Origin: Bacteroidota bacterium
GTDB taxonomy: Bacteria > Bacteroidota > Bacteroidia > B-17B0 > Aurantibacillaceae
Assembly: GCA_018267825.1 (NCBI GenBank)
Contig: JAFDXR010000011.1
Location: 1 to 64,000 of the forward strand
Length of the DNA stretch: 64,000 nucleotides
Reading direction: 5' to 3'
A program made the translations under genes and the position numbers. Below, piece by piece: positions 1-26,859 of this stretch (positions within the stretch are counted from its first letter, which is position 1; every line of letters starts with the position of its first letter). A model generated the notes under the pieces. That model worked only from the letters and a program-made list of their open reading frames with translations. It had not been told where the DNA came from and did no database searches.

Positions 1-425
1 ACGCAGACGCGCACAGATCGGCACCACTCATCATGACGAGCGAAGCAATCTCAGTCCTCTTTCTTTCTCGCAGATATGCGCAGATTTAGAACACGCAGAT
101 TCACGCAGAAGAATAACAGTCTTTCAGCGGAAATCAGCGTATTCATCGGCGGAAATCAGCGGGAACCTTGCACGCAGACACGCACAGATCGGTGCCACCC
201 ATCATGACGAGCGAAACAATCTCAGTCCTCTTTCTTTCTCGCAGATCCACGCAGATTTAGAACACGCAGATTCACGCAGAAGAATAACAGCCTTTCAGCG
301 AAAATCAGCGTATTCATCGGCAGAAATCAGCGGGAACCTTGCACGCAGACACGCGCAAATCGGCACCACTCATCATGACGAGCGAAGCAATCTCAGTCCT
401 CTTTCTCTCTCGCAGATAAACGCAG
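1..425. repeat. 171-bp tandem repeats, about 2.5 copies
   Basis: The same block starts at about 2, 172 and 343, giving a period of 171 bases with only scattered substitutions. Each unit contains several short words built on CGCAGAT and TCAGCG plus a conserved stretch around ATCATGACGAGCGAAGC. No reading frame runs through it. A diverged relative of the block lies at about 43610-43700. The left end may continue beyond the window. It looks like a non-coding interspersed Bacteroidota repeat; its function is unknown. Confidence 0.85.
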
Positions 426-452
426 CTCAAAAGCGGGATGTAAAGTCGGAGA

Positions 453-1463
453 TCAGAACGTATTTACACCGTTAACGGTTGTATACTTCATGGTGTATTT
501 CACACCGGGATTCATATACTTATAGGCGCTGTGGCTCATTAGTGCCGCTTCGTGGAAACCGCAAAGAATGAGTTTCAGTTTATTTTTATACGTATTGATA
601 TCACCAATGGCATAAATACCTTCCACGTTGGTAGAGTAATCATCGGTATTTACTTCAATGGCATTTTTATCAATATTGAGTCCCCATTTTTCGATAGGCC
701 CCAGTTTAGGACTTAATCCAAACAAAGGAATCAGGTGATCGGTTTCTATGGTTGTTGCTTCGTTGGTTTTACTGTTCACCATCGACACGCTATTCAGTTT
801 ACCATTACCACTCACGGCCGACAAATTCGTATTCAGCAATAGTTTGATTTTTCCATCTTCAGCCAGTTTCATGACTTTGTTTACACTGTCGGGGGCTCCG
901 CGGAACGATTCGCTGCGGTGAACCAGCGTTAATTCGGAGCAGATATCGCTCAGGAAAATAGTCCAGTCGAGGGCGCTGTCGCCACCGCCGGCAATTACCA
1001 TTTTCTGGTTGCGGTATTTCTCCGGATCCAGGATCATGTAATTGATTCCTTTTCCGTTTTCAAATTGCGTGAGGCCTTCCACTTCCGGTTTACGTGGTTC
1101 GAAACAACCAAGTCCACCGGCAATCACTACCACTTTCGCATGCACTTCGGTGCCCATATTGGTAGTCAGCACAAAGTCGCGTTCGCCGCGTTTATCAAGG
1201 CTTTCTACGCGTTCGCCAAACGTAAAGGTAGGCTTAAACGGTTCTGCCTGTTTCATGAGGTTATCTACCAGTTCCTGTGCCAGTACGGTTGGGTAACCCG
1301 GGATATCGTAAATAGGTTTTTTGGGATATATTTCAGAAAGCTGTCCACCCGCCTGAGGAAGGTAGTCGATCAGGTGACAACGCATTTTTAAGAGTCCGGC
1401 TTCAAAAATGGCGAACAAACCTACAGGGCCTGCGCCTATAATGGCGATATCGGTGGTAATCAT
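453..1463 (-). CDS. Ferredoxin--NADP reductase, thioredoxin-reductase-like type
   Basis: A cytoplasmic FAD/NADP flavoprotein that would pass electrons between NADPH and ferredoxin. The N-terminus has the FAD dinucleotide fold IIGAGPVG, and a second fold VIAGGGDSALDW near residue 160 binds the nicotinamide nucleotide. The CxxC redox pair of true thioredoxin reductases is absent, which places it in the YumC/FNR2 type. A longer frame starts at 1484, but a good promoter lies at 1482-1513, so the ATG at 1463 (336 residues) is preferred. It stands alone on the minus strand. Alternative: an uncharacterised paralogue of thioredoxin reductase. Confidence 0.85.
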   Translation of the reverse strand: MITTDIAIIGAGPVGLFAIFEAGLLKMRCHLIDYLPQAGGQLSEIYPKKPIYDIPGYPTVLAQELVDNLMKQAEPFKPTFTFGERVESLDKRGERDFVLTTNMGTEVHAKVVVIAGGLGCFEPRKPEVEGLTQFENGKGINYMILDPEKYRNQKMVIAGGGDSALDWTIFLSDICSELTLVHRSESFRGAPDSVNKVMKLAEDGKIKLLLNTNLSAVSGNGKLNSVSMVNSKTNEATTIETDHLIPLFGLSPKLGPIEKWGLNIDKNAIEVNTDDYSTNVEGIYAIGDINTYKNKLKLILCGFHEAALMSHSAYKYMNPGVKYTMKYTTVNGVNTF

Positions 1464-1481
1464 GTGATTGAAAAATTTTGG

Positions 1482-1513
1482 CAAAGGTACAAAAACGTTA
1501 AAACCTACCCAAA
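1482..1513 (-). promoter_or_regulatory. Bacteroidota promoter of the ferredoxin-NADP reductase gene
   Basis: Read on the minus strand, TTTG (1510-1513), 20 bases, then TACCTTTG (1482-1489). This matches the Bacteroidota primary sigma pattern TTTG-N17-21-TAnnTTTG. It lies 19 bases upstream of the ATG at 1463 and rules out the longer start at 1484. Confidence 0.65.
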
Positions 1514-1526
1514 TATGGAGGCCCGC

Positions 1527-2009
1527 TTATGCTTTTTTATGAGCCAAAACCTCCTGATATTTCTCATTCAGGTATTTCCAGGCCTCCGGGCGGTATTCGA
1601 AAAGAATTTCGCGCTGCACCGAATCATTCCTGTTCCCATATTTTCCGAGGCTGAAATTCTTCACAGAAATGAAAACACCTGAGCGGGCAAAATAATCATC
1701 AACCTGTTCTTCTGTAATGGTCTTTCGACCATGCCTATCAATACGTACCAGTGAAACCAGCGGCATACTCTCCCATGCAACCAGGGTATTTCGCATAAGC
1801 CCGCGTTCCCTGGCACCAACAGAGTCGATCGTGATCCGGTTAAAGGACTGTTTCAGCAGTATGACAAGGGTAAACGGCAGGAAATAAAAACACAAATACC
1901 ATGTTTGGAAAATAATAACCAAGGTCACAATCGCTAATAGAAATAGACCCGTCAGGGAAAAGAAAATAATATTTGGCCCGGTATTGAAATTGACTTTGCT
2001 GAAAGTCAT
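1527..2009 (-). CDS. Small membrane protein of unknown function
   Basis: 160 residues. Two hydrophobic helices close to the N-terminus (about 12-35 and 37-52) form a hairpin, followed by a soluble domain of about 105 residues rich in beta-strand patterns and charged residues. This layout is seen in small PH-like or YcxB-like membrane proteins, but no signature residues confirm that. It lies 15 bases downstream of the NifU-type gene and could share its transcript. No function can be assigned. Confidence 0.6.
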   Translation of the reverse strand: MTFSKVNFNTGPNIIFFSLTGLFLLAIVTLVIIFQTWYLCFYFLPFTLVILLKQSFNRITIDSVGARERGLMRNTLVAWESMPLVSLVRIDRHGRKTITEEQVDDYFARSGVFISVKNFSLGKYGNRNDSVQREILFEYRPEAWKYLNEKYQEVLAHKKA

Positions 2010-2024
2010 ACAGGAGGGGATGAA

Positions 2025-2264
2025 TCAACTATTGATGGCCTGAACGGCTTTGATTTCGGGAACCGCGCGCTTGATGGTTTCTTCAATGCCGGCTTTCATG
2101 GTCATGTGGCTCATGCTGCAGGTGCTGCAGGCGCCCTTTAACTGGAGCATTACGGTTTTCTCGTCGGTTACTTCCAACACTTCCACATCGCCACCATCGG
2201 CCTCCAGGTATGGGCGGATGCTTTTAAGGGCTTCTTCTACTTTATCTACCAGTTCTTTGCTCAT
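2025..2264 (-). CDS. NifU C-terminal domain protein (Fe-S scaffold)
   Basis: 79 residues made almost entirely of a NifU C-terminal (Nfu) domain. It starts with a helix and EADGGDVEVLEV, and carries the paired cysteines in GACSTCSMS near residue 46 that bind a transient Fe-S cluster. It would deliver clusters to apo-proteins in the cytoplasm, for example the Fe-S enzymes encoded nearby. The length is normal for a single-domain Nfu protein. The ATG at 2264 follows an A-rich stretch. The gene lies 57 bases downstream of icd with a hairpin between. Confidence 0.85.
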   Translation of the reverse strand: MSKELVDKVEEALKSIRPYLEADGGDVEVLEVTDEKTVMLQLKGACSTCSMSHMTMKAGIEETIKRAVPEIKAVQAINS

Positions 2265-2271
2265 GTAAAAT

Positions 2272-2306
2272 AATTCCCGGATTATCTGAATTGATAACCC
2301 GGGAAT
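2272..2306 (-). terminator. Intrinsic terminator after icd
   Basis: A long hairpin with arms AATTCCCGG-TTATC and GATAA-CCGGGAATA and a 6-base loop lies between the icd stop (2322) and the nifU-type start (2264). On the minus strand it is followed by TTATTTTAC. It probably ends most icd transcripts. Confidence 0.6.
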
Positions 2307-2321
2307 ACAAAGGTACGATTT

Positions 2322-3551
2322 TTATTTACCCAATGCTTTTTTCAGGTTTGTATCCAGGGCATCGAGGAATTCTTCGGTATACAGGTAGTGTTCACCATGG
2401 TTTACTTTGTTACCATAGGCACAAACTGCTAAATCCTTGGTCATTTTACCGCTTTCTACAGTTTCCACACACACTTTTTCGAGGGTCTGGCAGAAATTGA
2501 TCAGGTCTTTGTTTCCATCCAGTTTACCACGGAACTCCAGGCCGCGTGTCCATGCGAAGATAGATGCGATCGGGTTTGTAGAGGTTGGTTTACCGGCCTG
2601 GTGATCGCGGTAGTGACGGGTTACTGTACCATGCGCTGCTTCAGCTTCCATGATTTTTCCATCCGGAGTAACCAATACAGAGGTCATCAATCCTAATGAA
2701 CCAAAGCCCTGTGCTACGGAGTCAGACTGTACGTCGCCATCGTAGTTTTTACAAGCCCATACGAAATTACCATTCCATTTTAAAGCAGAAGCTACCATGT
2801 CGTCGATAAGACGGTGTTCGTAAACAATACCGGCTGCTTCGAATTTCGCTTTATAATCGGCTTGATAAATCTCTTCGAAAATATCTTTGAAACGACCATC
2901 GTATTTTTTGAGGATGGTGTTTTTGGTAGACAGGTATAACGGCCATTTTTTGCTCAGAGCCATGTTGAAACAGGAGTGTGCAAAACCGCGGATCGACTCT
3001 TCGGTGTTGTACATGCCCATAGCAACGCCCGGACCTTTGAATTTGAAAATTTCGTTTTCGATCACTTGTCCGTCATCTCCTACAAATTTCATGGTCAGTG
3101 TTCCTTTACCCGGAATCACAACATCTGTAGCGCGGTACTGATCACCAAACGCATGACGACCTACAATGATCGGCGCAGTCCAGTTGCTTACCAGGCGTGG
3201 TACGTTTTTGCAAACGATAGGCTCGCGGAAAACGGTTCCGTCCAGAATATTACGAATGGTTCCGTTCGGCGATTTCCACATTTGTTTCAGGTTGAATTCC
3301 TTTACACGGGCCTCGTCGGGTGTGATGGTGGCACATTTAATACCAACCTGGTATTTTTTAATGGCTTCAGCAGCGTCGATGGTCACCTGGTCATTGGTTT
3401 GATCGCGGTATTCGATACCAAGGTCATAGTATTTGATATCTACATCCAGATACGGTAATATCAGTTTGTCTTTGATAAATTTCCAGATGATGCGGGTCAT
3501 TTCATCCCCATCTAATTCAACCACCGGGTTGGCTACTTTAATTTTGCTCAT
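2322..3551 (-). CDS. icd: NADP-dependent isocitrate dehydrogenase
   Basis: Oxidative decarboxylation of isocitrate to 2-oxoglutarate in the TCA cycle, making NADPH. The 409-residue length, the start [18 protein letters not shown] and the segment [18 protein letters not shown] are those of the eukaryotic-type homodimeric NADP enzyme rather than the E. coli type. [11 protein letters not shown] and [12 protein letters not shown] supply conserved metal and coenzyme-binding segments. It is transcribed alone; a TATATTTG minus-10-like element lies about 36 bases upstream of the ATG. No anomalies seen. Confidence 0.95.
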
Positions 3552-3586
3552 ATGATCGTGTTTTTATTAATATTTTTTTAAGCACC

Positions 3587-3594
3587 CAAATATA
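3587..3594 (-). promoter_or_regulatory. Minus-7 element upstream of icd
   Basis: TATATTTG on the minus strand fits TAnnTTTG and lies 36 bases before the icd ATG. I could not find a convincing TTTG at the expected upstream distance, so this is a partial match. Confidence 0.4.
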
Positions 3595-3684
3595 TGTTTT
3601 TTCCCATAACAGCTGCGGAAAATTGTCGAAAAATAGCCCCTGTTGTAGATAAGTCGCCCGGTGAAAAAGTCCGGCACGGCGTAA

Positions 3685-4647
3685 TCAGGCCTTTGATGAA
3701 AGTTTCTGTGCCAACATCTCATAATACCGGGTTGCCGGACCGAGATATGCAGGGCGTTGATCATGGCTCAGTATCTCTTTAAAGGCCACTGCCGGATGTT
3801 TGGAATGATACCGGCTTCGCTCCCCGATCTGCTGCATTTCCTCAGCCGACCAATGATGACCTGACATAGCCGCTATACCCCGGATCATGTTTGCCGGCCC
3901 ATCTGCATAATTGAACCAGAGCGAGGGGCCTGATTTTTCGCGCAGTTCCAGGTACACCTGCAAATAGCGTTCGAGCACAAGGGCCGTGTATGCATCCTGA
4001 TCGAGGTGGCTGATTGCATCGGGTGTGAATCCGAACACGGCCGGCTCAATAACTCCCGGCACGGCCTGCATGCCACGGTGCTTGCGATGCGACTGCAACA
4101 CATCGTATGGATCGCGATACAGAAACACACAAGGTACATGGGGATAAAGGCGGCGAAACGTATCGTAAAAAAACACATGCCAGCTGTCGAGTTTTATAAA
4201 CAACTGATTTTCGTTACCCTTTCGCTTCTGCCCGTAGAGCCGGATGGCAGCCTGCAGAGCCTTGTCTTTCTCTGTTTCGGTTAGCGAAACCGAGCGAAGA
4301 ATCTCATCAAAAAAAGGTACTTCGGCCAGAGAAACAGAACCGGAAGGAATGGCCAGCATCTGCGACAGAAGTGTGGATCCGCACCGGGAAATATGAAATA
4401 TAAATGCTGTAGGCTCTACGGATTCGACAGCATCAGCCAGCATCTCCAGTTCACTGATAGCGCTTACACAGGCAAAAGGTTTGGAGTTAAACGGATGACT
4501 CAGGCATTTAGCCAGGGTTTCATCAAAAAAAGGATCTGTATATGGTATATCATCCGCATAGAGCCATTTGCAAAGCAACTGCTCCTGTTGCCGGATGAGA
4601 CGGGCCGGAATCCATTTCTGCATATCGGACATTTTCTGCTGCATCAA
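3685..4647 (-). CDS. Sulfotransferase-like protein
   Basis: 320 residues. The 5'-phosphosulfate-binding loop of sulfotransferases is visible as FHISRCGSTLLSQML near residue 97. Later segments such as FLYRDPYDVLQSHRKHRG match the 3'-phosphate-binding region (R and S residues) of the PAPS fold. It would transfer sulfate from PAPS to an unidentified acceptor. Its ATG overlaps the stop of the upstream hydroxylase-like gene by 4 bases, so the two are very likely translated together and act on the same substrate. Acceptor and product cannot be inferred. Confidence 0.7.
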   Translation of the reverse strand: MMQQKMSDMQKWIPARLIRQQEQLLCKWLYADDIPYTDPFFDETLAKCLSHPFNSKPFACVSAISELEMLADAVESVEPTAFIFHISRCGSTLLSQMLAIPSGSVSLAEVPFFDEILRSVSLTETEKDKALQAAIRLYGQKRKGNENQLFIKLDSWHVFFYDTFRRLYPHVPCVFLYRDPYDVLQSHRKHRGMQAVPGVIEPAVFGFTPDAISHLDQDAYTALVLERYLQVYLELREKSGPSLWFNYADGPANMIRGIAAMSGHHWSAEEMQQIGERSRYHSKHPAVAFKEILSHDQRPAYLGPATRYYEMLAQKLSSKA

Positions 4648-5345
4648 TTGCCCTGGATCTCCAGTTTCAGTTTCCGGACCAGTTCCCTGGAAGCCTCTGT
4701 ATCCATGGTTTCCAGAGCCTCAATCATTTTCAGTTTGGTGTCACGATCATAAGCCAGGTTTTGTTTTTCTTCCTCAAAATCATAACCGGCACCGGCAAAA
4801 ATCGCATCCGACCAGGCATTGCGTTTCCCGTCGATAATCAGGTGAATGCGCGGTTCGGAACCATTATTCTGAACGCTGTGCGGCAGATGAAAATTGGCAT
4901 ACCAGCATTCACCGGGCTGCATATCCATATCCACACCATCTACACGGAAAACAACCTGCGGCACTGTTTTTATGGGGATGTGTAAGCGAAAAAAACCATA
5001 CTCATAGCCCTGGTGAAGATCGCGGTGTTCTTTGATATGACTGCCGGGAGACAATGATAATAAACGAACGGCTTCGATCTCACATAAAAACCCGTCTACA
5101 ATCGATTTGAAATAAGTGCATGTTTCGAGCAGGGGTGTATTCTGAAAGCCCGTTGCTGCCGGGAGCGCATATATATCGTCGGTATTTCCCGAGGCCGAAC
5201 GCAGCGCAATACTGGTCCATTCTCCCGAATAATCGGCTGTATTGAAATGAGACTGCCAGTGCGTTTTCACACATTCATCCAGGTCAGTCAGAAGCCGGTT
5301 TACGTTATACTGAAGCGGCAGTTTCAAAAAGCGGTTTCTACTCAT
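4644..5345 (-). CDS. Aspartyl/asparaginyl beta-hydroxylase-like oxygenase
   Basis: 233 residues of the AspH/Asp_Arg_Hydrox double-stranded beta-helix family of Fe(II)/2-oxoglutarate enzymes. The iron-binding pair appears as HIKEHRDLH near residue 108 and LPHSVQNNG near residue 157, and RIHLIIDG supplies the 2-oxoglutarate arginine. It would hydroxylate an aspartate or asparagine side chain or a small acidic metabolite. It is the first gene of a two-gene operon with the sulfotransferase, suggesting hydroxylation followed by sulfation, which is inference only. Confidence 0.75.
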   Translation of the reverse strand: MSRNRFLKLPLQYNVNRLLTDLDECVKTHWQSHFNTADYSGEWTSIALRSASGNTDDIYALPAATGFQNTPLLETCTYFKSIVDGFLCEIEAVRLLSLSPGSHIKEHRDLHQGYEYGFFRLHIPIKTVPQVVFRVDGVDMDMQPGECWYANFHLPHSVQNNGSEPRIHLIIDGKRNAWSDAIFAGAGYDFEEEKQNLAYDRDTKLKMIEALETMDTEASRELVRKLKLEIQGN

Positions 5346-15311: not shown

Positions 15312-16088
15312 CTATTCGCCTTTGAAAACCGGTTTGCGTTTTTCAAGGAAAGCTTTTACTCCTTCGTTGTAGTCGTAGCTCTTTGCGGATTCAACCTGCA
15401 TGTCGCGTTCCATGTCGAGTTGCTGAGCCAGTGTATTCTGATACGATGCATTGAGCAATCGTTTGGTGAGGCCAATGGCTTTGGTAGGCATAGCCGCCAT
15501 GTGTTGCGCATTGACCAGGGCCTGGCTTAACAAATCCTTGTCGTCGAATATTTTGTAAACCATACCATACTGCATGGCTTCTTCGGCAGTGGCTTTATCC
15601 CCGGTCATCATCAGGGCGCTTGCCATATTGAAACCGATGAGGCGCGGAAGCATAAATGTTCCACCGCTATCCGGAATGAGCCCGATTTTGCTGAATGCCT
15701 GGATAAAACTGGCTGAACGTGCCGCAAATACAATATCGCAGGCCAGTGCAATGTTTGCCCCAGCTCCTGCAGCTACACCATTGACCGCTGCAATAATTGG
15801 TTTTTCAATATGACGAATGCGCATAATGATAGGATTGTAATGCTCCTCCACAATACGTTCAATACCGGGGCCGCTGTTGTCAATCGCTTCGGCCAGATCC
15901 TGTCCGGCACAGAAGGCTTTGCCTTCGCCTGTGAGCACAATGGCGCGTACGGTTTTATTTTTTTCAGCCTCATCGAGTGCAGCATGTAGCTGCAAGGCCA
16001 TTTCGCGGTTAAAGCTATTGAACTTGTCGGGGCGGTTTAATCGGATAACAGCCACATTTCCCTGTAATTCGGTAATGATGAAAGACAT
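15312..16088 (-). CDS. paaG: 2-(1,2-epoxy-1,2-dihydrophenyl)acetyl-CoA isomerase
   Basis: Crotonase-fold enzyme, 258 residues, that would convert ring-1,2-epoxyphenylacetyl-CoA to the oxepin in phenylacetate breakdown. Key segments are GKAFCAGQDLAEA (about residue 56), AVNGVAAGAGANIALACD (about 103) and FSKIGLIPDSGGTFMLPR (about 130, with the aspartate typical of PaaG). It ends with KRKPVFKGE, as many enoyl-CoA hydratases do. It lies on the same strand as paaABCD, separated by a histidine kinase. A generic enoyl-CoA hydratase remains possible, but PaaG fits best. Confidence 0.85.
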   Translation of the reverse strand: MSFIITELQGNVAVIRLNRPDKFNSFNREMALQLHAALDEAEKNKTVRAIVLTGEGKAFCAGQDLAEAIDNSGPGIERIVEEHYNPIIMRIRHIEKPIIAAVNGVAAGAGANIALACDIVFAARSASFIQAFSKIGLIPDSGGTFMLPRLIGFNMASALMMTGDKATAEEAMQYGMVYKIFDDKDLLSQALVNAQHMAAMPTKAIGLTKRLLNASYQNTLAQQLDMERDMQVESAKSYDYNEGVKAFLEKRKPVFKGE

Positions 16089-16114: not shown

Positions 16115-17611
16115 TTATTTCTTAGAGAAGGAAATTTTATATGCTGTTCCTTCGCCCGGTTTATTGGTGCGCTGGCAGGTGCCATCAATCTGGTCGACAA
16201 GTCCATTCAGAATATCGAGGCCTATCGACTTGGCCGGAATTTTTGAATCATCGAAGCCAACCCCATTATCCCTGATTGTAAGGAATACCTGCTTGTTGTT
16301 TTCAAGCAGGGAGATTTCGATCACACCGTCTTTACGCCCATTAAATGCATGCTTATAGGCATTGGTAATGAGTTCATTGACAATAAGCGCCAGTGGAATG
16401 GCCGACGAAATATCGAGGTGAACGTCGGTAATACCTTTCACCAGTTTAATATGCTGAGAGGCGCTGTAGGAATGTCCCAGGTGATCCAGAATCTCATTGA
16501 GGTATTCCTTGAAGTTCAGCTGTGCATAGGATTTGGCTTTGTAAATGAGCTCATGCACTGTAGCAATGGAGTTCAGGCGGTCTTTACATTCCTCGAACAG
16601 TCGACGGTGATATTCATCATGCGATTTTTCGGCCTGAAGATTCATCAGGCTGGCTACAATACTCAGGTTATTTTTTACGCGGTGGTGTATTTCCTGCAAC
16701 AGCACTTTTTGTTCGTTCAGCGAAATTTCGAGCGACTGCCGTGCTTTCTTCTTTTCATACGTTTCCAGGGCCAGCGAGATCATCTGGGCCGTTACCAGTC
16801 CGAATTTCTGTTCCTGCAATGTCCATTCGCGCGGCGAGCCAACATTTTCAAAACAGATCACGCCAATCATTTCACCTTCAATACGAACGGGGATATCCAT
16901 AAGAGCCTGAATGTTGTGAGGTTTGAGGTAAAACTCATATAGTTCGGCCGTTTTGGTTTCGGTAAATGCATCGCTGGTAATGATGATCTTCTCCGTTTCG
17001 AACAGCGAAAAATAAAACGGCATAGCGATACGTGGCAAAGCCGATTGCGGCACCAGTTTGTTTTCGCGGGCATCGAAATTTCCGATACACTGAATTTCCG
17101 TTTTATCTTTATCAAATACCCAGGCATTCACACGGGTGGTATTGGTCGCCCGCGACGAAAGTTCGAGAATTTCATAAATGGCCTCATCCAATTTACCCTC
17201 ACGTATTTTCCGTGATTTGGAAAGGTTTTCGATGGTCAGCGCTTTCTTAATGATATCTTTCCTGACAATTTGCTGCTGCGTATTGTCGCGAATGAAAATA
17301 GCATAAAACAGCTCCCCGTCTTTCTCGATCTGTGAGGCACGGAACACCACATTGATGTAGGTCCTGGTCTTGTGACGGATATTATCGGTGAAGAAGCATT
17401 CGCCGAAGCGGTCCACTTTATTGTATAATGTTTCGAGTCGTGTTTCGGGATTAATGAAAAAATAAGGGAGTCCGTGTTCCTTGATTTCTTCGGCAGTATA
17501 TCCAAGCAGGTGCGAAATGCCATTGGAAATAAACACCACTTCACTCTTGTTATTCAGAATGATGACATGTTCGAGAAACTGATGGATGATATCCGGGAAA
17601 ATATCGGTCAT
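16115..17611 (-). CDS. Sensor histidine kinase, PAS-GAF-HisKA_2 type
   Basis: 498 residues without membrane segments. Order: PAS domain (about 5-120, VFISNGISHLLGYTAEEI), GAF-like domain (about 145-285), dimerisation/phosphoacceptor box LLQEIHHRVKNNLSIVASLM (histidine near 317) of the HisKA_2/HWE-like kind, and an HATPase_c domain with VNELITNAYKHAF, IRDNGVGFDDSKIP and SIGLDILNGLVDQI. It would sense a cytoplasmic signal. No response regulator is adjacent. It sits between paaD and paaG, so a role in phenylacetate control is possible but unproven. Confidence 0.88.
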   Translation of the reverse strand: MTDIFPDIIHQFLEHVIILNNKSEVVFISNGISHLLGYTAEEIKEHGLPYFFINPETRLETLYNKVDRFGECFFTDNIRHKTRTYINVVFRASQIEKDGELFYAIFIRDNTQQQIVRKDIIKKALTIENLSKSRKIREGKLDEAIYEILELSSRATNTTRVNAWVFDKDKTEIQCIGNFDARENKLVPQSALPRIAMPFYFSLFETEKIIITSDAFTETKTAELYEFYLKPHNIQALMDIPVRIEGEMIGVICFENVGSPREWTLQEQKFGLVTAQMISLALETYEKKKARQSLEISLNEQKVLLQEIHHRVKNNLSIVASLMNLQAEKSHDEYHRRLFEECKDRLNSIATVHELIYKAKSYAQLNFKEYLNEILDHLGHSYSASQHIKLVKGITDVHLDISSAIPLALIVNELITNAYKHAFNGRKDGVIEISLLENNKQVFLTIRDNGVGFDDSKIPAKSIGLDILNGLVDQIDGTCQRTNKPGEGTAYKISFSKK

Positions 17612-17723: not shown

Positions 17724-18212
17724 CTAAATACACTTGAAATAATCGAAAGGTTCCAGGCAGTCTTTGCACTGATAGAGCGCTTTGCAGGCGGTGCTTCCGA
17801 ACTGGGAAATGAGTTGTGTATTGGCCGACCGGCAGCGCGGGCATAACACGGTTTTCTGTTTGCCGGTAAGCCAGCTTTTATCCTGTGTGGTATGCTCCGG
17901 TGGCGCAATGCCGTAACGGCGGAGTTTCTCTTTGGCTTCTTCCGGAATCCAGTCGGTTGTCCAGGGCGGATCAAAAACGGTTTTCACAATAACCTCTTCG
18001 AATCCTTCCTTTTTCAGGATAGCGCGCACATCATCTTCAATCTGTTTCATGGCCGGGCAACCACTGTAAGTGGGGGTTATTTTCACCTCAACCGCAGAGC
18101 CGTTCACCTGTATGTCGCGGATCACACCCAGCTCCACAATAGATATAACCGGAATCTCGGGATCCGGCACCTGTTGCAGAATAGAGAGAATATGCCCGGG
18201 ACTGTGCAGCAT
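17724..18212 (-). CDS. paaD: Phenylacetyl-CoA epoxidase subunit PaaD
   Basis: 162 residues. The N-terminal MIP18/DUF59-type domain has VPDPEIPVISIVELGVI and PTYSGCPAMKQIEDDV, and the C-terminal part carries four cysteines in CPRCRSANT and QCKDCLEPFDYFKC, a zinc-ribbon-like Fe-S or zinc site. PaaD is thought to help assemble or mature the epoxidase Fe centres. Its ATG follows directly on the stop codon of a 33-residue membrane miniprotein (TAA then ATG), so translation is coupled to the genes upstream. Confidence 0.92.
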   Translation of the reverse strand: MLHSPGHILSILQQVPDPEIPVISIVELGVIRDIQVNGSAVEVKITPTYSGCPAMKQIEDDVRAILKKEGFEEVIVKTVFDPPWTTDWIPEEAKEKLRRYGIAPPEHTTQDKSWLTGKQKTVLCPRCRSANTQLISQFGSTACKALYQCKDCLEPFDYFKCI

Positions 18213-18314
18213 TTACAAAATAAAAATAGCGGCAATAATCATAATCACAATAATGACGATGTATTGCCAGACATCAACAAAATACGGGGAAAGTTTTTTC
18301 CAGGTTTCTTTCAT
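18213..18314 (-). CDS. 33-residue single-span membrane miniprotein in the paa operon
   Basis: A reading frame of 33 codons plus stop: MKETWKKLSPYFVDVW followed by one strongly hydrophobic helix (YIVIIVIMIIAAIFIL, residues 18-33) that runs to the C-terminus. Its ATG overlaps the TGA of the upstream gene (ATGA), and its TAA is followed without a gap by the paaD ATG, so it is packed with translational coupling on both sides. A charged, amphipathic N-terminus with a bare C-terminal helix suggests an inner-membrane tail-anchored peptide. I do not recognise a family. It could be missed by gene callers because of its size. Confidence 0.6.
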   Translation of the reverse strand: MKETWKKLSPYFVDVWQYIVIIVIMIIAAIFIL

Positions 18315-18676
18315 TCTACCATGATCTTGTAAGAAGCAGTATTATACGGGCCTGAACAACCTGCATCTATCTTCTCAATAAAAAATTTATCGCCTTTTTT
18401 CCAGGCTGTAAATAATCCCAATTTGTCCTCAGGCATGTTCGAATCGGCACGACCACCATATTTTACAATCGCTGTCTGCTGTGATGAATGTATGATCATG
18501 ACGAAGTTAAACTGGTATACGATACAATCAGAAGGTATTTCGGCAACAATATCGTGCAATGATTTAGCGGCCTTTAACTGTGCTTCGGTTATTCTGACAA
18601 CCACGCTTTTTGATCTGGTCTGGGCAAATACCCCAAACGACATCACAAGCAAAATGGCACAAAGCAGTTTTTTCAT
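18311..18676 (-). CDS. Exported 121-residue protein, possible GldM C-terminal-like fold
   Basis: A signal peptide (MKKLLCAILLVMSFGVFAQ) precedes about 100 residues with the pattern ITEAQLKAAKSLHDIVAEIP, VYQFNFVMIIH, WKKGDKFFIEKIDAGCSGP and YKIMVE. The order strand, helix, strand and the GDKFFIEKI/GP/YKI ending resemble the C-terminal domain of the gliding protein GldM. This is pattern recognition only. It starts 6 bases after paaC and overlaps the miniprotein by 4 bases, so it is fully inside the paa operon, which is unexpected for an exported protein. Confidence 0.6.
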   Translation of the reverse strand: MKKLLCAILLVMSFGVFAQTRSKSVVVRITEAQLKAAKSLHDIVAEIPSDCIVYQFNFVMIIHSSQQTAIVKYGGRADSNMPEDKLGLFTAWKKGDKFFIEKIDAGCSGPYNTASYKIMVE

Positions 18677-19469: not shown

Positions 19470-19757
19470 TTACATGTGCTTGATCGCATCCGGAATCTGG
19501 TAAAATGTAGGATGACGGTACACCTTATCGTTGGCCGGCTCAAAGAAAGGCCCCATATCTTCGGGACTGCTGGCCACAATGGCTGATGACGGAACTACCC
19601 AAAGTGCCATGCCTTCGCCGCGACGTGTATATAGATCGCGGGCATTCTGCAATGCCATTTCTTTATCGAAAGCGTGTAAGCTGCCACAATGTACAAAGGG
19701 TTGACCTGATTTACGTTGAACAAATACTTCCCATACCGGGCCTTGAGAATCAGACAT
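19470..19757 (-). CDS. paaB: Phenylacetyl-CoA epoxidase subunit PaaB
   Basis: 95 residues. PaaB bridges the PaaAC heterodimers in the epoxidase complex. WEVFVQRKSGQPFVHCGSLH, ALQNARDLYTRRGEGMALWV and the proline-rich end are characteristic. The ATG at 19757 is chosen over the in-frame TTG at 19763. The 86-base gap to paaA contains a three-fold, roughly 20-base tandem repeat. Confidence 0.94.
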   Translation of the reverse strand: MSDSQGPVWEVFVQRKSGQPFVHCGSLHAFDKEMALQNARDLYTRRGEGMALWVVPSSAIVASSPEDMGPFFEPANDKVYRHPTFYQIPDAIKHM

Positions 19758-19772
19758 AATCAAATTGGATTT

Positions 19773-19843: not shown

Positions 19844-20791
19844 TCAGGCGGCTACAGCTGTAGATTCGCCTTTCTTTTTAGCATAAGCCGCCGCCGCCTC
19901 ACGCACCCATGCACCATTCTTATGCGCATCGTTACGGGCTTTGAGGCGTTGCTTATTGCATGGACCATTACCATTGATCACGTTTTTGAACTCCACCCAG
20001 TCAGGCTCACTGAAATCGTAACCCTGTTTGGCTTCATTCCATGTGAGTTTTTCATCCGGCACAGTCAAGCCAAGGTATTCGGCCTGCGGCACGGTCTGGT
20101 TCACGAAACGCTGACGCAGCTGATCATTTGTCTCGCGTTTAATGCGCCATTTGATGGCATTTTCGCTGTTCGGGCTGTCTTTATCCGGCGGGCCGAACAT
20201 CATCATGGTTGGGTACCACCAGCGGTTGAGGGCATCCTGTGCCATTTGTTTTTGCTCCGGTGTACCAAAAGCCAGATGGGTCATAATTTCATACCCCTGG
20301 CGCTGGTGAAAGCTTTCTTCTTTGCAGATACGCACCATGGCACGGCTGTATGGGCCGTAAGACGAGCGTTGAAGCATCACCTGGTTCATGATAGCGGCAC
20401 CGTCAACCAACCAGCCTATAGCTCCTACATCGGCCCAGGTAAGGGTCGGGTAGTTGAAGATGGATGAATATTTTGCTTTGCCGGTATGCAAGGCATCGAG
20501 CAGCTCATCGCGGCTCACACCGAGTGTTTCGGCAGCTGTATAGAGGTACAATCCATGGCCTCCTTCGTCCTGAACTTTGGCCAGCAGCACTATTTTGCTT
20601 CGCAGGCTCGGGGCGCGGGTAATCCAGTTACCTTCAGGCAGCATACCTACAATTTCAGAGTGGGCGTGCTGGGAGATCTGGCGGATCAGGTGTTTACGGT
20701 AATTATCCGGCATCCAGTCCTTCGGTTCGATAAAATCATTTTTAGCGAGCTTGGACTCAAAAATGTCTTCAAAATTGATGTTTTGTTCCAT
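19844..20791 (-). CDS. paaA: Phenylacetyl-CoA epoxidase catalytic subunit PaaA
   Basis: 315 residues. The di-iron monooxygenase subunit that epoxidises the aromatic ring of phenylacetyl-CoA. Ligand-bearing helices are visible as [20 protein letters not shown] and [15 protein letters not shown] (E..H pattern), with [15 protein letters not shown] before them. A longer frame starts at 20941 but runs through the promoter at 20818-20848, so the ATG at 20791 ([11 protein letters not shown]) is right. First gene of the minus-strand paa operon; paaE is divergent. Confidence 0.95.
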
Positions 20792-20817
20792 GTAAGCGGA
20801 TCGTGTTAGTGAGTAAG

Positions 20818-20848
20818 CAAATTTAACTGAAAAAGCATGAATTTCAAA
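20818..20848 (-). promoter_or_regulatory. Promoter of the paaABC operon
   Basis: On the minus strand, TTTG (20845-20848), 19 bases, TAAATTTG (20818-20825), 26 bases before the paaA ATG. It is a full Bacteroidota-type match and fixes the paaA start. Confidence 0.7.
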
Positions 20849-21021
20849 GGAAAGGGGGGCTATAATTTGCCCGGAAAGCCGGCAAAACGATTTAACCGGG
20901 AGCAAAAGGTCACCCGGTTTCATGGAGTCACGATCATTCATGGGATATGGGCAGATGGCTGATCGTGGATTTCATTGAGAACCGTCATATTTTAAAATGC
21001 TGATATTCTAAGTAATTATCT

Positions 21022-21048: not shown

Positions 21049-22122
21049 ATGGCCCGTTTTCACACTTTAAAAGTAAAAGACATACGCCGCGAAACTGCTG
21101 ATGCCGTTTCAGTGGCATTCGACATCCCACCACAACTGCAAACCGAATACCAATTCAAGCAGGGCCAGTATATTACACTAAAACTGACCGTCAATGGTGA
21201 AGAAATCCGTCGTTCATACAGTATATGTACAAGCCCGTACAGCGAAAAAGAGCTGCGGGTGGCCATTAAGGAAGTGAAAGACGGCCGTGCTTCTACCCTG
21301 ATAAACCGTTCACTGAAAGTGGGCGACACGATAGAGGTGATGACACCCATGGGAAATTTCCATTCGGTGTTATCGGGCAGCAATAAAAAAAGCTACGTGC
21401 TGTTTGCCGGTGGCAGTGGCATCACGCCAATGATGAGTATTCTGAAAAGTGTGCTGTATATCGAAAAACAAAGCCACGTCACACTGGTATATGCCAACCG
21501 CGATGAAGACTCTGTGATTTTTAAAGCTGAGATTGAAAAACTGGCTTCTGAAAATGCAGATAAGCTGAAAGTGGTGAATGTATATGACAATCCGAAAGGC
21601 CAGGTGGCTGATCTTTGCAAAGGCCTGATCACTATTGACAAAACCAAAGCCCTGATTGAAAATTACGGTGGCGTGAATGCCGACGAATATTTTATCTGCG
21701 GCCCGGGCCCGATGATGGAAAACATCAAACAGGCCCTGGAAGATTTAAAAATCCAAAAAGAAAAAATTCATATCGAATACTTTACAACGGTTGCTGAAGC
21801 TGTTGCAAAAGCAGAAGGCGGCGACACTGTACATGCCAATGTAAAAAGCAAGGTGACTGTATTGCAATACGGTGTTGAAACGCAGTTTGAACTCGAAACA
21901 AGCAGCATCAGTATTCTGGATGCCAGTATCGAAGCCGGTGTGGACGCACCGTTCAGCTGCAAAGGCGCTGTATGCTGTACCTGCCGCGCCAAAATTCTGG
22001 AAGGCCAGGTGAAGATGGATGCCAACTTTGCACTGACCGACAAGGAAGTGGAAGAAGGCTTTATTCTTACCTGTCAGTCGCACCCGATCACTGAGAAAGT
22101 GGTGATCGATTATGACGCGTAA
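21049..22122 (+). CDS. paaE: Phenylacetyl-CoA epoxidase reductase subunit PaaE
   Basis: 357 residues. It passes electrons from NADPH to the PaaA di-iron centre. The FAD domain has RRSYSICTSPYSE, the NAD(P) domain has FAGGSGITPMMSIL and EYFICGPGPMMENIK, and the C-terminal plant-type ferredoxin domain has the 2Fe-2S cysteines in CKGAVCCTCRAK and LTCQSHP. It is divergent from paaABC instead of following paaD as in E. coli. A strong terminator follows. Confidence 0.94.
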   Translation: MARFHTLKVKDIRRETADAVSVAFDIPPQLQTEYQFKQGQYITLKLTVNGEEIRRSYSICTSPYSEKELRVAIKEVKDGRASTLINRSLKVGDTIEVMTPMGNFHSVLSGSNKKSYVLFAGGSGITPMMSILKSVLYIEKQSHVTLVYANRDEDSVIFKAEIEKLASENADKLKVVNVYDNPKGQVADLCKGLITIDKTKALIENYGGVNADEYFICGPGPMMENIKQALEDLKIQKEKIHIEYFTTVAEAVAKAEGGDTVHANVKSKVTVLQYGVETQFELETSSISILDASIEAGVDAPFSCKGAVCCTCRAKILEGQVKMDANFALTDKEVEEGFILTCQSHPITEKVVIDYDA

Positions 22123-22269: not shown

Positions 22270-25200
22270 TTACCTTGCTATGACAAAACTCTTCAATTGC
22301 GTACCCGACATGCCTTCTACTTTGATCCAATACATGCCTTCCGCCAAAGACTCAATGTTTATTTGCTTTATTCGTGTTTCTTTAGCCATGATACTTTCAC
22401 ATTGCACAACCTGTCCAAATGAGTTATAGATAAAAATCCGTCCGGCTGCAGCACCAAACATTCCGGTCATCGAGGCGCTCCACTGTAAACTTATAGACGT
22501 GTTTGCAGGGTTTGGCTGTAAAATGAATAAATTATCGCCATCATCACCCACCTGCACGTCCCTGATACCTGCGTATGTATAAGTGTTATCAAAATTTGTT
22601 TGTTTGAGGCGGTAATAGCTCAAACCGCTGTAGGGTGACGTATCGGCATCCTGATAATTCAGCTGTGTATTGCTATTACCGGCCCCGTTTCTTTGCAGAA
22701 CAAATTCCCAGTTTTGCGCATCCAGAGACCGCTCTATTGTAAAATAATCGTTATTAACCTCAGAGGCTGTCTGCCAGGCTAAATCCACATGCCGGCCTGT
22801 TTTATTATAAGTGGCTGTAAAATCCAATAATCCCACAGGTAAAGGTGTCAGACTGCTGCTTGATGCAATCGTAAGATACAGGCTGCTGTTCTGAGGAATA
22901 TGCGTATTACTGATGCCGCTGATGGTAATAATTGGAGCGGCATAACTGATGCTTATACCTGTACCGTCGCCGTTGAAATAACAATTGGTGGTTCCTGCTG
23001 CAAAATTACCGTCGTCGTCAATCAAAACCCGCAGATCTGCTACATTCAAACTGGCAGTGGCGCAGGCATTGAGCTTAATATCCAAAGCAAAACTATTTGA
23101 AAAGTTTGTGTTGCTTATTTTCCACTCCCGCTCAATACGTCCGTACAAGGAACAGGATGCCGGCCTCTCGTTGTTATTGCTCCCTGCGCACAAACGACCA
23201 GGACTGGCACCTATTACTATATAGGCCGTGTTGGTAGAAATCGCCCCTGCGTTTGAGGCATTGTTAGCGGCCAGTGTACCAATGTATACACGCAGGGAGT
23301 CGTCATTGGTTTTGCTTTGCTTTTGATTCAGGGAACCGGCATCGTCGCGGGCAATCCCTATAATGTTGTTGGTGTAGGTTGTGGTCAGTGCAAATACTGT
23401 TGTGCCGGTTGTAGCAAAATAATTGTGTGAAAGCGATGTGCTGTATTTTATAGCCAGATAGGACTCTATACGTTCATGCTCGGCCTGGGACAAAGCACCT
23501 GTATAAAGTATAAATTCTGGTATTTTGCCGGTGAAAGGGTTGTTAGCCGCGTCTGCTGCTATATCATTATCACCCATTTGAAAAGTCGTATTAGTAGCCA
23601 CGTAAGGACTATACGTGCTTTTAGAAGCCTGTTGTGTACCGTCAATGTATAAAGCTTCCTGTGGTGCGGCCCCGGTATTATGCACGCCATTGGTATTGGC
23701 CTTATAGGAGGATAAGTGTAATTTATTGGCGCCGAAAATGCTGGTATGATTATACGAAACCCTGTTGGTAGTTGGTAAATCTATGTCTCCATTGGTAGCA
23801 CCGCCGAAATTCATACTAATGGAAAAACGATCTACCCCTGAGGTTCCCTGGTATATCACCCAATCAAAGTCGGTATTGCTATCGTCAATATAGGGAAGAT
23901 AATAATTGAATTGAGGGTAAGAAGTAGACGCAACAAAGAGTCCCGGAGCAGCCCGCTGCAGATTATTATCAGTAAAAACAGCATAGGGATTGTAATTACA
24001 CAAGCCAAGGCTCCCGTTTTTAAAAACAGGTTTTAGAGCTGCGGTTGCCTGAGAAAGGTGCAACGCGCTGCTGGTTTGATCGTTCCATTGTTGCATGGCG
24101 TTTCCATCGCTGGCTGAGGTGATGCCGTTATCACTATATACATCAGCATCTGCTTTATACCAGGCTCTTAATCCCGCAGATACTCCACCGGGAGAGCCCG
24201 TGATCTTTGTGGCTAATGTAAACTTGGTGCCCGTTGTAAAATCAATCGTCCCTGCCCATAAATTTCCGGATGTATTTGTAAGCGCTATGACTACACCGTC
24301 AGTGTAATTACCATCGGCATTAGGATCGGTTACTAAATAATACGAAGTGCCGGTCAATAAAGCAGGTACATCGAAGGTGGCATTGCCAACATCAAATTGT
24401 ACGTTCACTGAACCAACCGTACCGGCTTCCTGAACCTGCCATTGGCGGCTTAAAATATTGTATCCTGCCGGAACACCGGTGCTGGTCCATGAGGCTGCTC
24501 CTCCGTTATCGGCTACCACCTCAAAACTCAAATCGGCACTTAAGGCTGTCCGGGAAACATCCTGATTGGCAAGTACAAAATTATTGGTGGTTGCCAGGGT
24601 TAATATACTGCCTGCGTTAACCGAGCCCGATACTTTTTGACTCAGCGCAGAGGCATCGTCTCTGCCTATCCCAAAAATGTTTTTATTAAAGCCTGTCGCC
24701 GCAGAGGCTGCATTCCACATGTTGGTACCGTCACTCGCCAGATAACTGGTAGGACTTGTCTGATCCAGGGTTATGCCATATTTCAGAGCCAGATAGGATT
24801 CTATTTTTTGTATATCTGTGGCACTTGTTCCGGTATTGGTATTGTAGTGTATAACTTCTGCAATAACACCGGGAAAAATTCTGGTCGGGAGCCCACCATA
24901 AGTCCTTCCGCCGATCTGAAAGATTCCATCCGGTGTAATAACTCCGCCGCCCCCGCAAACTGACATTCCTAAAGAATTCAGATACGTCCGGGCACTGTTT
25001 GAGGAGGTGACCTGATCATAATCCGTTCGTACCAGTACTTTTTGGTTTAACTGGTTGGGGGTTCCGGAGCAAAATATTCCGGAGCCATCCACGCCATAAA
25101 AGCCCGTTGAAGGATCGAAATTTGCCCCCATTGCCCCTGCGGGACTCAGCGCATAGGTGTTTGAACAACATCTTGCTGCAGATGCCGTATTTTGCGACAC

Positions 25201-26778
25201 CACAAAAAACAGTGCCGGATTAGCCGGTGCCGATGCAAAGGTCCCGGTCAGCATTTTACCTGAAGTTCCGGTGAATACTATTGCCGGATTGTAATTAAAA
25301 TAATTGGTATTCAGGGTAATGTCGCTGGAGGCCGCCTGAGAAGCCTGGGCAGTCATGGGCGTAGCTGCCTGATTGGTCCATTGAGTTACGTTTGAACCAC
25401 TCGTGCTTACTCCCAGATCGGCTTTTGTCCATAACCACAGGTTAGAACTGACACCACCGGGCGAGCCCGTAATCATTGATGCTAATGTGAATTTAGTGCC
25501 TGTTGTAAAATCAAACGTACCGGCCCATAAATTTCCGGACGTATTTGTAAGCGCTATGGCTACACCATCTGCGTAATTACCATCGGCATTAGGATCGGTT
25601 ACTAAATAATAAGAGGTGCCGGTCAATAAAGCAGGTACATCAAAGGTGGCATTGCCGACATCAAATTGTACATTCACTGAACCAACCGTACCGGCTTCCT
25701 GAACCTGCCATTGGCGGCTTAAAATATTGTATCCTGCCGGAACACCGGTGCTGGTCCATGAGGCTGCTCCTCCGTTATCGGCCACCACCTCAAAACTCAA
25801 ATCGGCACTTAAGGCTGTCCGGGAAACATCCTGATTGGCAAGTACAAAGTTATTGGTGGTTGCCAGAGTGAGGATACTGCCAGCATGAATCGAACTCGAT
25901 ACTTTTTGGTTGAGGGCTGAACCATCGTCTCTGCCCAAGCCAAATATTCTATTATTGAAGCCTGCTGCCGCTGCCGCAGAGTTCCACATAATGGTAGTGC
26001 CATTACTGGCTATATAATCGGTAGCTGTGGTTTGATTTAAGCTAATGCCGTATTTGAGGGCTAAGTAGGAGCTTATCTTTTGCCTGTTAACACCTGCCTG
26101 AGAGGAATTGTAAACTATTACTTCTGCAATGCCGCTGTTATTTGACAACGGTTCTGTAGCTCTGCTAGCAATAGTTGGTATAGCGGAAAATGGCACCGGG
26201 TCTCCTCCGGCGGTATTGCTTAAAGAAGCATAATTATATCTGATAACATCGGCCGACCCTGGTGTAGAAGAATAATCAGAGTTCATCAAAGCAAAAGGGA
26301 TGCTATTGCCAAGTGGATTACCTGAGTAAACTCCTGCGCCTCCACAATATAGAACACCACCTTCTGTATGGAAAAAATAATTTCCCGAAGCTAATGAGGT
26401 GTTTCCCACAATAGCTCCTGAGGAATTAACTCCACTCGTATTAGTAATACTAGCAACTACAAAGGCTTCTGTTATATTAGAAATAGACGTATTACCTTTA
26501 AAGTAGCTACTACCATCAAATTTAATATACGGATTAAAATTGAGGGCATTAGCAGTATATTGAGGCGTTCCTAGTACGGAAAAGGTATTAACCCCTGCGT
26601 TATCTGTCCACGCTGTTACAGTAGAACCTGAAGTTGTAATACCCAAGTCGGCTTTTGTCCATAACCGCAGGTTAGAACTGACGCCACCCGGACTCTGGGC
26701 GCAAGTATTTTCTATCTGCAGCGCCAGACAAAATAACACAAGTAAGCAGGTCCTTTTTGTTTTTTTCGCTGACTCCAT
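22270..26778 (-). CDS. Large modular T9SS-secreted protein
   Basis: About 1502 residues from the ATG at 26778, which gives a clean signal peptide (KKTKRTCLLVLFCLALQ ... CAQ). A longer start at 26859 would place 27 residues before it. Three modules each begin with SPGGVSxxLxxWxKAD and contain a LamG-like/jelly-roll domain plus a segment naming a crystal-like IFGIGRDD motif. Modules 1 and 2 are almost identical over about 140 residues. The end is a T9SS type A domain (LPVGLLDFTATYN, QPNPANTSISLQW, GMYWIKVEG). A surface adhesin or glycan-binding protein is likely; no catalytic motif seen. Confidence 0.8.
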   Translation of the reverse strand: MESAKKTKRTCLLVLFCLALQIENTCAQSPGGVSSNLRLWTKADLGITTSGSTVTAWTDNAGVNTFSVLGTPQYTANALNFNPYIKFDGSSYFKGNTSISNITEAFVVASITNTSGVNSSGAIVGNTSLASGNYFFHTEGGVLYCGGAGVYSGNPLGNSIPFALMNSDYSSTPGSADVIRYNYASLSNTAGGDPVPFSAIPTIASRATEPLSNNSGIAEVIVYNSSQAGVNRQKISSYLALKYGISLNQTTATDYIASNGTTIMWNSAAAAAGFNNRIFGLGRDDGSALNQKVSSSIHAGSILTLATTNNFVLANQDVSRTALSADLSFEVVADNGGAASWTSTGVPAGYNILSRQWQVQEAGTVGSVNVQFDVGNATFDVPALLTGTSYYLVTDPNADGNYADGVAIALTNTSGNLWAGTFDFTTGTKFTLASMITGSPGGVSSNLWLWTKADLGVSTSGSNVTQWTNQAATPMTAQASQAASSDITLNTNYFNYNPAIVFTGTSGKMLTGTFASAPANPALFFVVSQNTASAARCCSNTYALSPAGAMGANFDPSTGFYGVDGSGIFCSGTPNQLNQKVLVRTDYDQVTSSNSARTYLNSLGMSVCGGGGVITPDGIFQIGGRTYGGLPTRIFPGVIAEVIHYNTNTGTSATDIQKIESYLALKYGITLDQTSPTSYLASDGTNMWNAASAATGFNKNIFGIGRDDASALSQKVSGSVNAGSILTLATTNNFVLANQDVSRTALSADLSFEVVADNGGAASWTSTGVPAGYNILSRQWQVQEAGTVGSVNVQFDVGNATFDVPALLTGTSYYLVTDPNADGNYTDGVVIALTNTSGNLWAGTIDFTTGTKFTLATKITGSPGGVSAGLRAWYKADADVYSDNGITSASDGNAMQQWNDQTSSALHLSQATAALKPVFKNGSLGLCNYNPYAVFTDNNLQRAAPGLFVASTSYPQFNYYLPYIDDSNTDFDWVIYQGTSGVDRFSISMNFGGATNGDIDLPTTNRVSYNHTSIFGANKLHLSSYKANTNGVHNTGAAPQEALYIDGTQQASKSTYSPYVATNTTFQMGDNDIAADAANNPFTGKIPEFILYTGALSQAEHERIESYLAIKYSTSLSHNYFATTGTTVFALTTTYTNNIIGIARDDAGSLNQKQSKTNDDSLRVYIGTLAANNASNAGAISTNTAYIVIGASPGRLCAGSNNNERPASCSLYGRIEREWKISNTNFSNSFALDIKLNACATASLNVADLRVLIDDDGNFAAGTTNCYFNGDGTGISISYAAPIITISGISNTHIPQNSSLYLTIASSSSLTPLPVGLLDFTATYNKTGRHVDLAWQTASEVNNDYFTIERSLDAQNWEFVLQRNGAGNSNTQLNYQDADTSPYSGLSYYRLKQTNFDNTYTYAGIRDVQVGDDGDNLFILQPNPANTSISLQWSASMTGMFGAAAGRIFIYNSFGQVVQCESIMAKETRIKQINIESLAEGMYWIKVEGMSGTQLKSFVIAR
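24185..24600. repeat. Internal duplication in the T9SS protein gene, copy A
   Basis: Over 90% identical by eye to 25454-25869, at an offset of 1269 bases (423 codons). The identity drops abruptly outside this stretch, while the protein modules remain homologous. Confidence 0.8.
25454..25869. repeat. Internal duplication in the T9SS protein gene, copy B
   Basis: Partner of 24185-24600. The near-identity at synonymous positions points to recent duplication or gene conversion between modules. Confidence 0.8.
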
Positions 26779-26859
26779 GACGCTTCTTCTGTACTCCGGA
26801 AGAAATTTATCTTCGCTTCCCGCGAAGTTCACATGTCTGTTTACTTTAGTTGTTATCAT

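Follow-up and report, generated by a model that had tools for sequence, protein, structure and literature searches.

What do two small, uncharacterised genes do inside an operon for phenylacetate breakdown? Within the window, by which we mean the whole 64,000-nucleotide stretch of Bacteroidota DNA analysed here, the minus-strand gene order is paaA, paaB, paaC, a 121-residue frame, a 33-residue frame and paaD. Neither of the small proteins is known to be a subunit of PaaABCDE. The features of the locus are as follows:

15312–16088, minus strand: paaG-like enoyl-CoA isomerase, downstream (TIGR02280, 328 bits against a cut-off of 345)
17724–18212, minus strand: paaD (TIGR02159), its start codon abutting the miniprotein stop
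18213–18314, minus strand: 33-residue single-span miniprotein, MKETWKKLSPYFVDVWQYIVIIVIMIIAAIFIL, with the family motif YFxDxWQY(L/I)
18311–18676, minus strand: 121-residue exported protein, a signal peptide plus a domain resembling the GldM C-terminal domain (PF12080), with two conserved cysteines, C51 and C107
18683–19435, minus strand: paaC (TIGR02158), 6 bases upstream of the 121-residue gene
19470–19763, minus strand: paaB (TIGR02157)
19844–20941, minus strand: paaA (TIGR02156 matches residues 61–349)
21049–22122, plus strand: paaE-like reductase (TIGR02160, 383 bits against a cut-off of 420.8)

The window's paaA, paaB, paaC and paaD each score above their NCBIfam cut-offs, and the first ATG of the paaA frame is probably too early. 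The paaE-like gene is divergent from paaABC and stands outside the minus-strand run. The original prediction, made from the letters alone, described the two small frames as a translationally coupled pair, and this layout is borne out: the stop codon of the 121-residue frame (TGA, 18313–18311) overlaps the miniprotein start (ATG, 18314–18312) in an ATGA, and the miniprotein stop (TAA, 18215–18213) is followed immediately by the paaD ATG (18212). The signal peptide of the larger protein, of the Sec type (MKKLLCAILLVMSFGVFAQ), and the hydrophobic C-terminal helix of the smaller one are likewise both present. The paa run is not continuous: a gene for a sensor kinase, a PAS-GAF-HisKA_2 histidine kinase (16115–17611, minus strand), separates paaD from paaG. 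On the other side, the paa region adjoins a gene (22270–26859, minus strand) for a repetitive protein of 1529 residues that looks secreted and contains long repeated segments.

A frame as short as that of the miniprotein might be a chance frame, or a conserved DNA or RNA element, rather than a protein, a reading to which we give almost no credence. Chance is excluded because the frame recurs, at E<1e-6, in 71 of the 87 genomes of the same family (f1), because 11 of its 33 positions are invariant across 43 distinct paa-linked sequences, and because it is under purifying selection. Changes at the three codon positions come to 0.30/0.14/0.55 per codon (all pairs among 78 sequences), so that the third position dominates, and length and stop position are conserved. 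Comparisons with the closest sequences within the family gave pS values of 0.37–0.53 and pN values of 0.06–0.15. Two comparisons with close relatives gave pS 0.49 with pN 0.057 and pS 0.52 with pN 0.075, and the median dN/dS over unsaturated pairs was 0.24. The miniprotein has a lysine-rich N-terminus followed by about 20 hydrophobic residues up to its C-terminal end, its YFxDxWQY motif is invariant in f1, and it is usually single-copy per genome. Fifteen early orthologues are 73–91% identical to it, compared with only about 62–71% for the PaaC proteins of the same operons. The miniprotein is thus a true gene for a protein under purifying selection. The original prediction had proposed examining the conservation of the helix and the balance of synonymous and non-synonymous changes, and both came out on its side: frame and helix are kept in the family, and synonymous changes are in large excess, not equally frequent. 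At one locus (L205, 5523–5758, in G014; also in G007) the start of the miniprotein is tandemly duplicated; the extra frame shares the first 18 residues but continues into an unrelated end, and an intact copy follows, an arrangement that resembles the insertion of an element accompanied by duplication. An apparent fusion of the miniprotein into a 346-residue frame (L228/L345) was rejected as a stop-to-stop extension of the stand-alone miniprotein.

Within f1, the miniprotein is closely associated with paaC. In 57 of 76 copies it follows paaC on the same strand at a distance of no more than 900 bp, 41 of those within 125 bp, and several of the other copies directly precede paaD, on broken contigs or in split operons. 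At 11 of the 57 paaC-linked loci there is no paaD downstream on the contig, and at seven paaD is about 2 kb away; the miniprotein stays beside paaC even where paaD is separated. A conserved N-terminus, WKKxSPYF, sets the paa-linked copies apart, with W5 in 93% and P10 in 98%, versus 27% and 32% elsewhere. In addition, a genome of another family (G220, f28) carries a general-type miniprotein in the same paaC-paaD slot, and its PaaC does not nest in f1. The persistent linkage, the distinctive N-terminus and the slot in G220 suggest that the association with paa is real in some lineages, and a paa-specific role in f1 is possible.

This tie is not uniform. The expectation that related paa operons would carry the miniprotein was upheld by the majority of f1 copies, but 14 of the 83 paaC-positive f1 genomes lack it. 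Many f1 genomes have a second, type-2 paa operon, whose PaaC is about 50% identical to that of the window, and in the f1 genomes the miniprotein was never found in type-2 operons. One type-2 paaC-paaD locus lies about 94 kb from the first (G000, contig C2, 112270–113474), outside the window. In genus g9, the miniprotein and paa are both present but apart. On a PaaC tree, carriers of the miniprotein are dispersed through the type-1 clade, which also has several members without it; the miniprotein was therefore probably ancestral in this clade and was lost or moved several times.

Profile searches extended the family to about 15 further families of Bacteroidia, while a phylum sample of 296 genomes gave no credible relative outside Bacteroidia, and none was found on plasmids. 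The relatives have in common an Asp-x-Trp core where the helix begins; in this core, Asp is invariant and Trp near-invariant, whatever the neighbours. These neighbours are diverse. The miniprotein follows an inositol monophosphatase gene in f6 and f19 (L334, L335), where lgt and a radical-SAM UPF0004 gene lie upstream; lgt is also upstream at L337, and inositol monophosphatase again precedes the miniprotein in f21. It follows an NfeD-like gene in f38 and f44 (L331–L333), with DUF983 on its other side at L332 (f38), and PorP/SprF precedes it at L198, L199, L216 and L338, f38 included. It stands between MazG and ispH in f4 (L326–L330), and after SulP, DabAB and DUF167 in f31 (L188). The last locus is an inorganic-carbon uptake context, where a single run (13–5340) comprises the end of DabA, a DabB-like antiporter, SulP, DUF2490, DUF167 and the miniprotein. 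The few named carriers are a Fluviicola MAG and, weakly, Reichenbachiella faecimaris (E 2e-4, a divergent candidate). Cox-like genes near L184/L186 raised the idea of a respiratory subunit, which was rejected since the pattern holds in one family only. Outside f1, the co-occurrence with paaC (50 of 57, nominal Fisher p 0.002) was discounted, since it is uncorrected for kinship and the genome draws differ. The miniprotein also occurs in genomes where paaC was not detected, the complete G184 among them. No entry in Pfam, NCBIfam or PDB covers the miniprotein, and its profiles gave chance hits only against PDB sequences. Curated family models, such as those of CydX and AcrZ, gave no match for the window miniprotein and only scattered weak hits for 39 relatives. 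Its sequence may be contained, without a function, in global small-ORF catalogues such as PMC11364881.

Our preferred reading, held with moderate confidence, is that the miniprotein belongs to an undescribed family of 32–43-residue single-span inner-membrane proteins of Bacteroidia, and that it acts as a general small membrane protein in the style of AcrZ and CydX, hitchhiking in operons while its partner is encoded elsewhere. A general membrane function, rather than one in phenylacetate breakdown, is probable because the family spans many Bacteroidia and occupies a phenylacetate operon in just some of the lineages. The miniprotein is conserved in sequence even as its surroundings vary, which is most easily explained if its partner or target is encoded elsewhere. 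Of the two parallels, CydX serves as a small subunit within a larger complex and AcrZ modulates AcrB (PMC7267776, PMC4325964). The miniprotein is of the same size class and likewise has a single hydrophobic helix, although no sequence relationship was detected (no credible Pfam or NCBIfam family) and it is restricted to Bacteroidia in the sample searched. Its small size, N-terminal lysines, interfacial aromatic/Asp motif and helix running to the C-terminus fit a lateral membrane partner of the AcrZ/CydX type. The predicted topology is N-inside, with a lysine-rich cytoplasmic end, an interfacial YFxDxWQY segment and a membrane helix ending the chain. By analogy, the miniprotein may bind laterally to the transmembrane helices of a larger inner-membrane protein, probably making contact through its invariant Asp and its Trp, Gln and Tyr residues, and might tune or stabilise that protein as AcrZ and CydX do their partners. 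Its gene has no fixed home and lies at the end of other operons or within them, often by stop-start coupling. It would have settled after paaC in an ancestor of the f1 type-1 paa operon, a slot that the optional, periplasmic 121-residue companion may also have entered. More tentatively, the D-x-W-conserved proteins of 33–43 residues could be a widespread, unannotated core membrane component of Bacteroidia, either a small subunit of one of the group's major inner-membrane complexes or a regulator of it, missed because they fall below the usual gene-calling limits.

The original prediction favoured another role: at the membrane, the miniprotein, alone or together with the exported protein, would anchor the phenylacetyl-CoA epoxidase or regulate it. 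The predominance of paaC-linked copies in f1, the survival of this linkage when paaD departs, the WKKxSPYF N-terminus and the occupied slot in G220 all speak for it, and both small proteins share the paa operon. However, both are missing from other paa operons, type-1 operons among them, and an epoxidase subunit expected wherever PaaABCD occurs would not be absent from 14 of 83 f1 genomes and from the type-2 operons. The same core motif is also found next to unrelated genes in other families, as well as in genomes where no paaC was detected, many paaC genomes have no miniprotein, and genus g9 keeps the two apart. We therefore disfavour the epoxidase tether and consider it rather unlikely. Less likely still is a joint action with NfeD/SPFH-type membrane-domain proteins in lipid or protein quality control; NfeD-like genes lie upstream at three loci (L331, L332, L333), a DUF983 membrane protein adjoins the miniprotein in several families and SPFH-type genes follow paaC at two loci that lack it, but most loci have a neighbour of neither type, and the pattern was noticed after the fact in small numbers. 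Size and hydrophobicity would also suit a type I toxin-like peptide that depolarises the membrane, yet such a peptide is hardly expected to show purifying selection, a motif conserved over many families, coupled translation within metabolic operons and usually one copy per genome; we regard this reading as very improbable. The suspected accessory gene of an enzyme more likely encodes a membrane protein of general function that moves between operons, and the case warns that operon position alone is unsafe for reading function. For Bacteroidia, our analysis brings to light a strongly conserved protein family that had no name, and it provides a list of loci and organisms for a partner search.

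Fifteen relatives of the 121-residue protein (alignment A3) are only 18–35% identical to it, but all have in common the signal peptide, a pair of near-invariant cysteines and the consensus K-x-G-x-K-x-x-I-E-x-I-K. The suggested relationship to GldM holds. PF12080 (GldM_4th), the GldM C-terminal domain of the T9SS/gliding motor (reviewed in PMC7463736), is matched by nine of the 16 family members; the window protein reaches 15.3 bits (E 0.031) against a Pfam gathering score of 24.6 bits, and relatives at the same place reach 27.6 bits (G005) and 24.4 bits (G041; 24.9 with neighbours in frame). Alignment of A3 with the GldM C-terminal domains of the same bacteria (A4) by hhalign gave a probability of 96.6% with E 4.8e-10 over 82 columns, which shows homology at the level of sequence profiles. 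In contrast to GldM, with its N-terminal membrane helix and several periplasmic domains, the protein consists of a signal peptide and one domain and bears the two cysteines; the most fitting description is a GldM_4-type periplasmic domain standing alone. AlphaFold, given this single sequence, produced a poor model (pLDDT 44). As a companion of the miniprotein, the exported protein is optional and evolves fast, occurring in one to three tandem copies; where present it is usually coupled to the miniprotein, as here, but the pair is not obligate, as most miniprotein loci lack it upstream.

The slot after paaC has also been taken by other genes, encoding a BD-FAE-type hydrolase, T9SS cargo, SpoIIE-TPR, DUF4159 and SPFH proteins in addition to the exported protein. 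In genus g9 (L230, L232–L234, L247), paaC is followed by a gene of the DUF4159 type and by one for a second exported protein. At L248, a Band_7/SPFH gene (3003–3923) follows a type-1 paaC where the miniprotein is absent, and at L240, also without the miniprotein, paaC is followed by a 306-residue gene similar to it.
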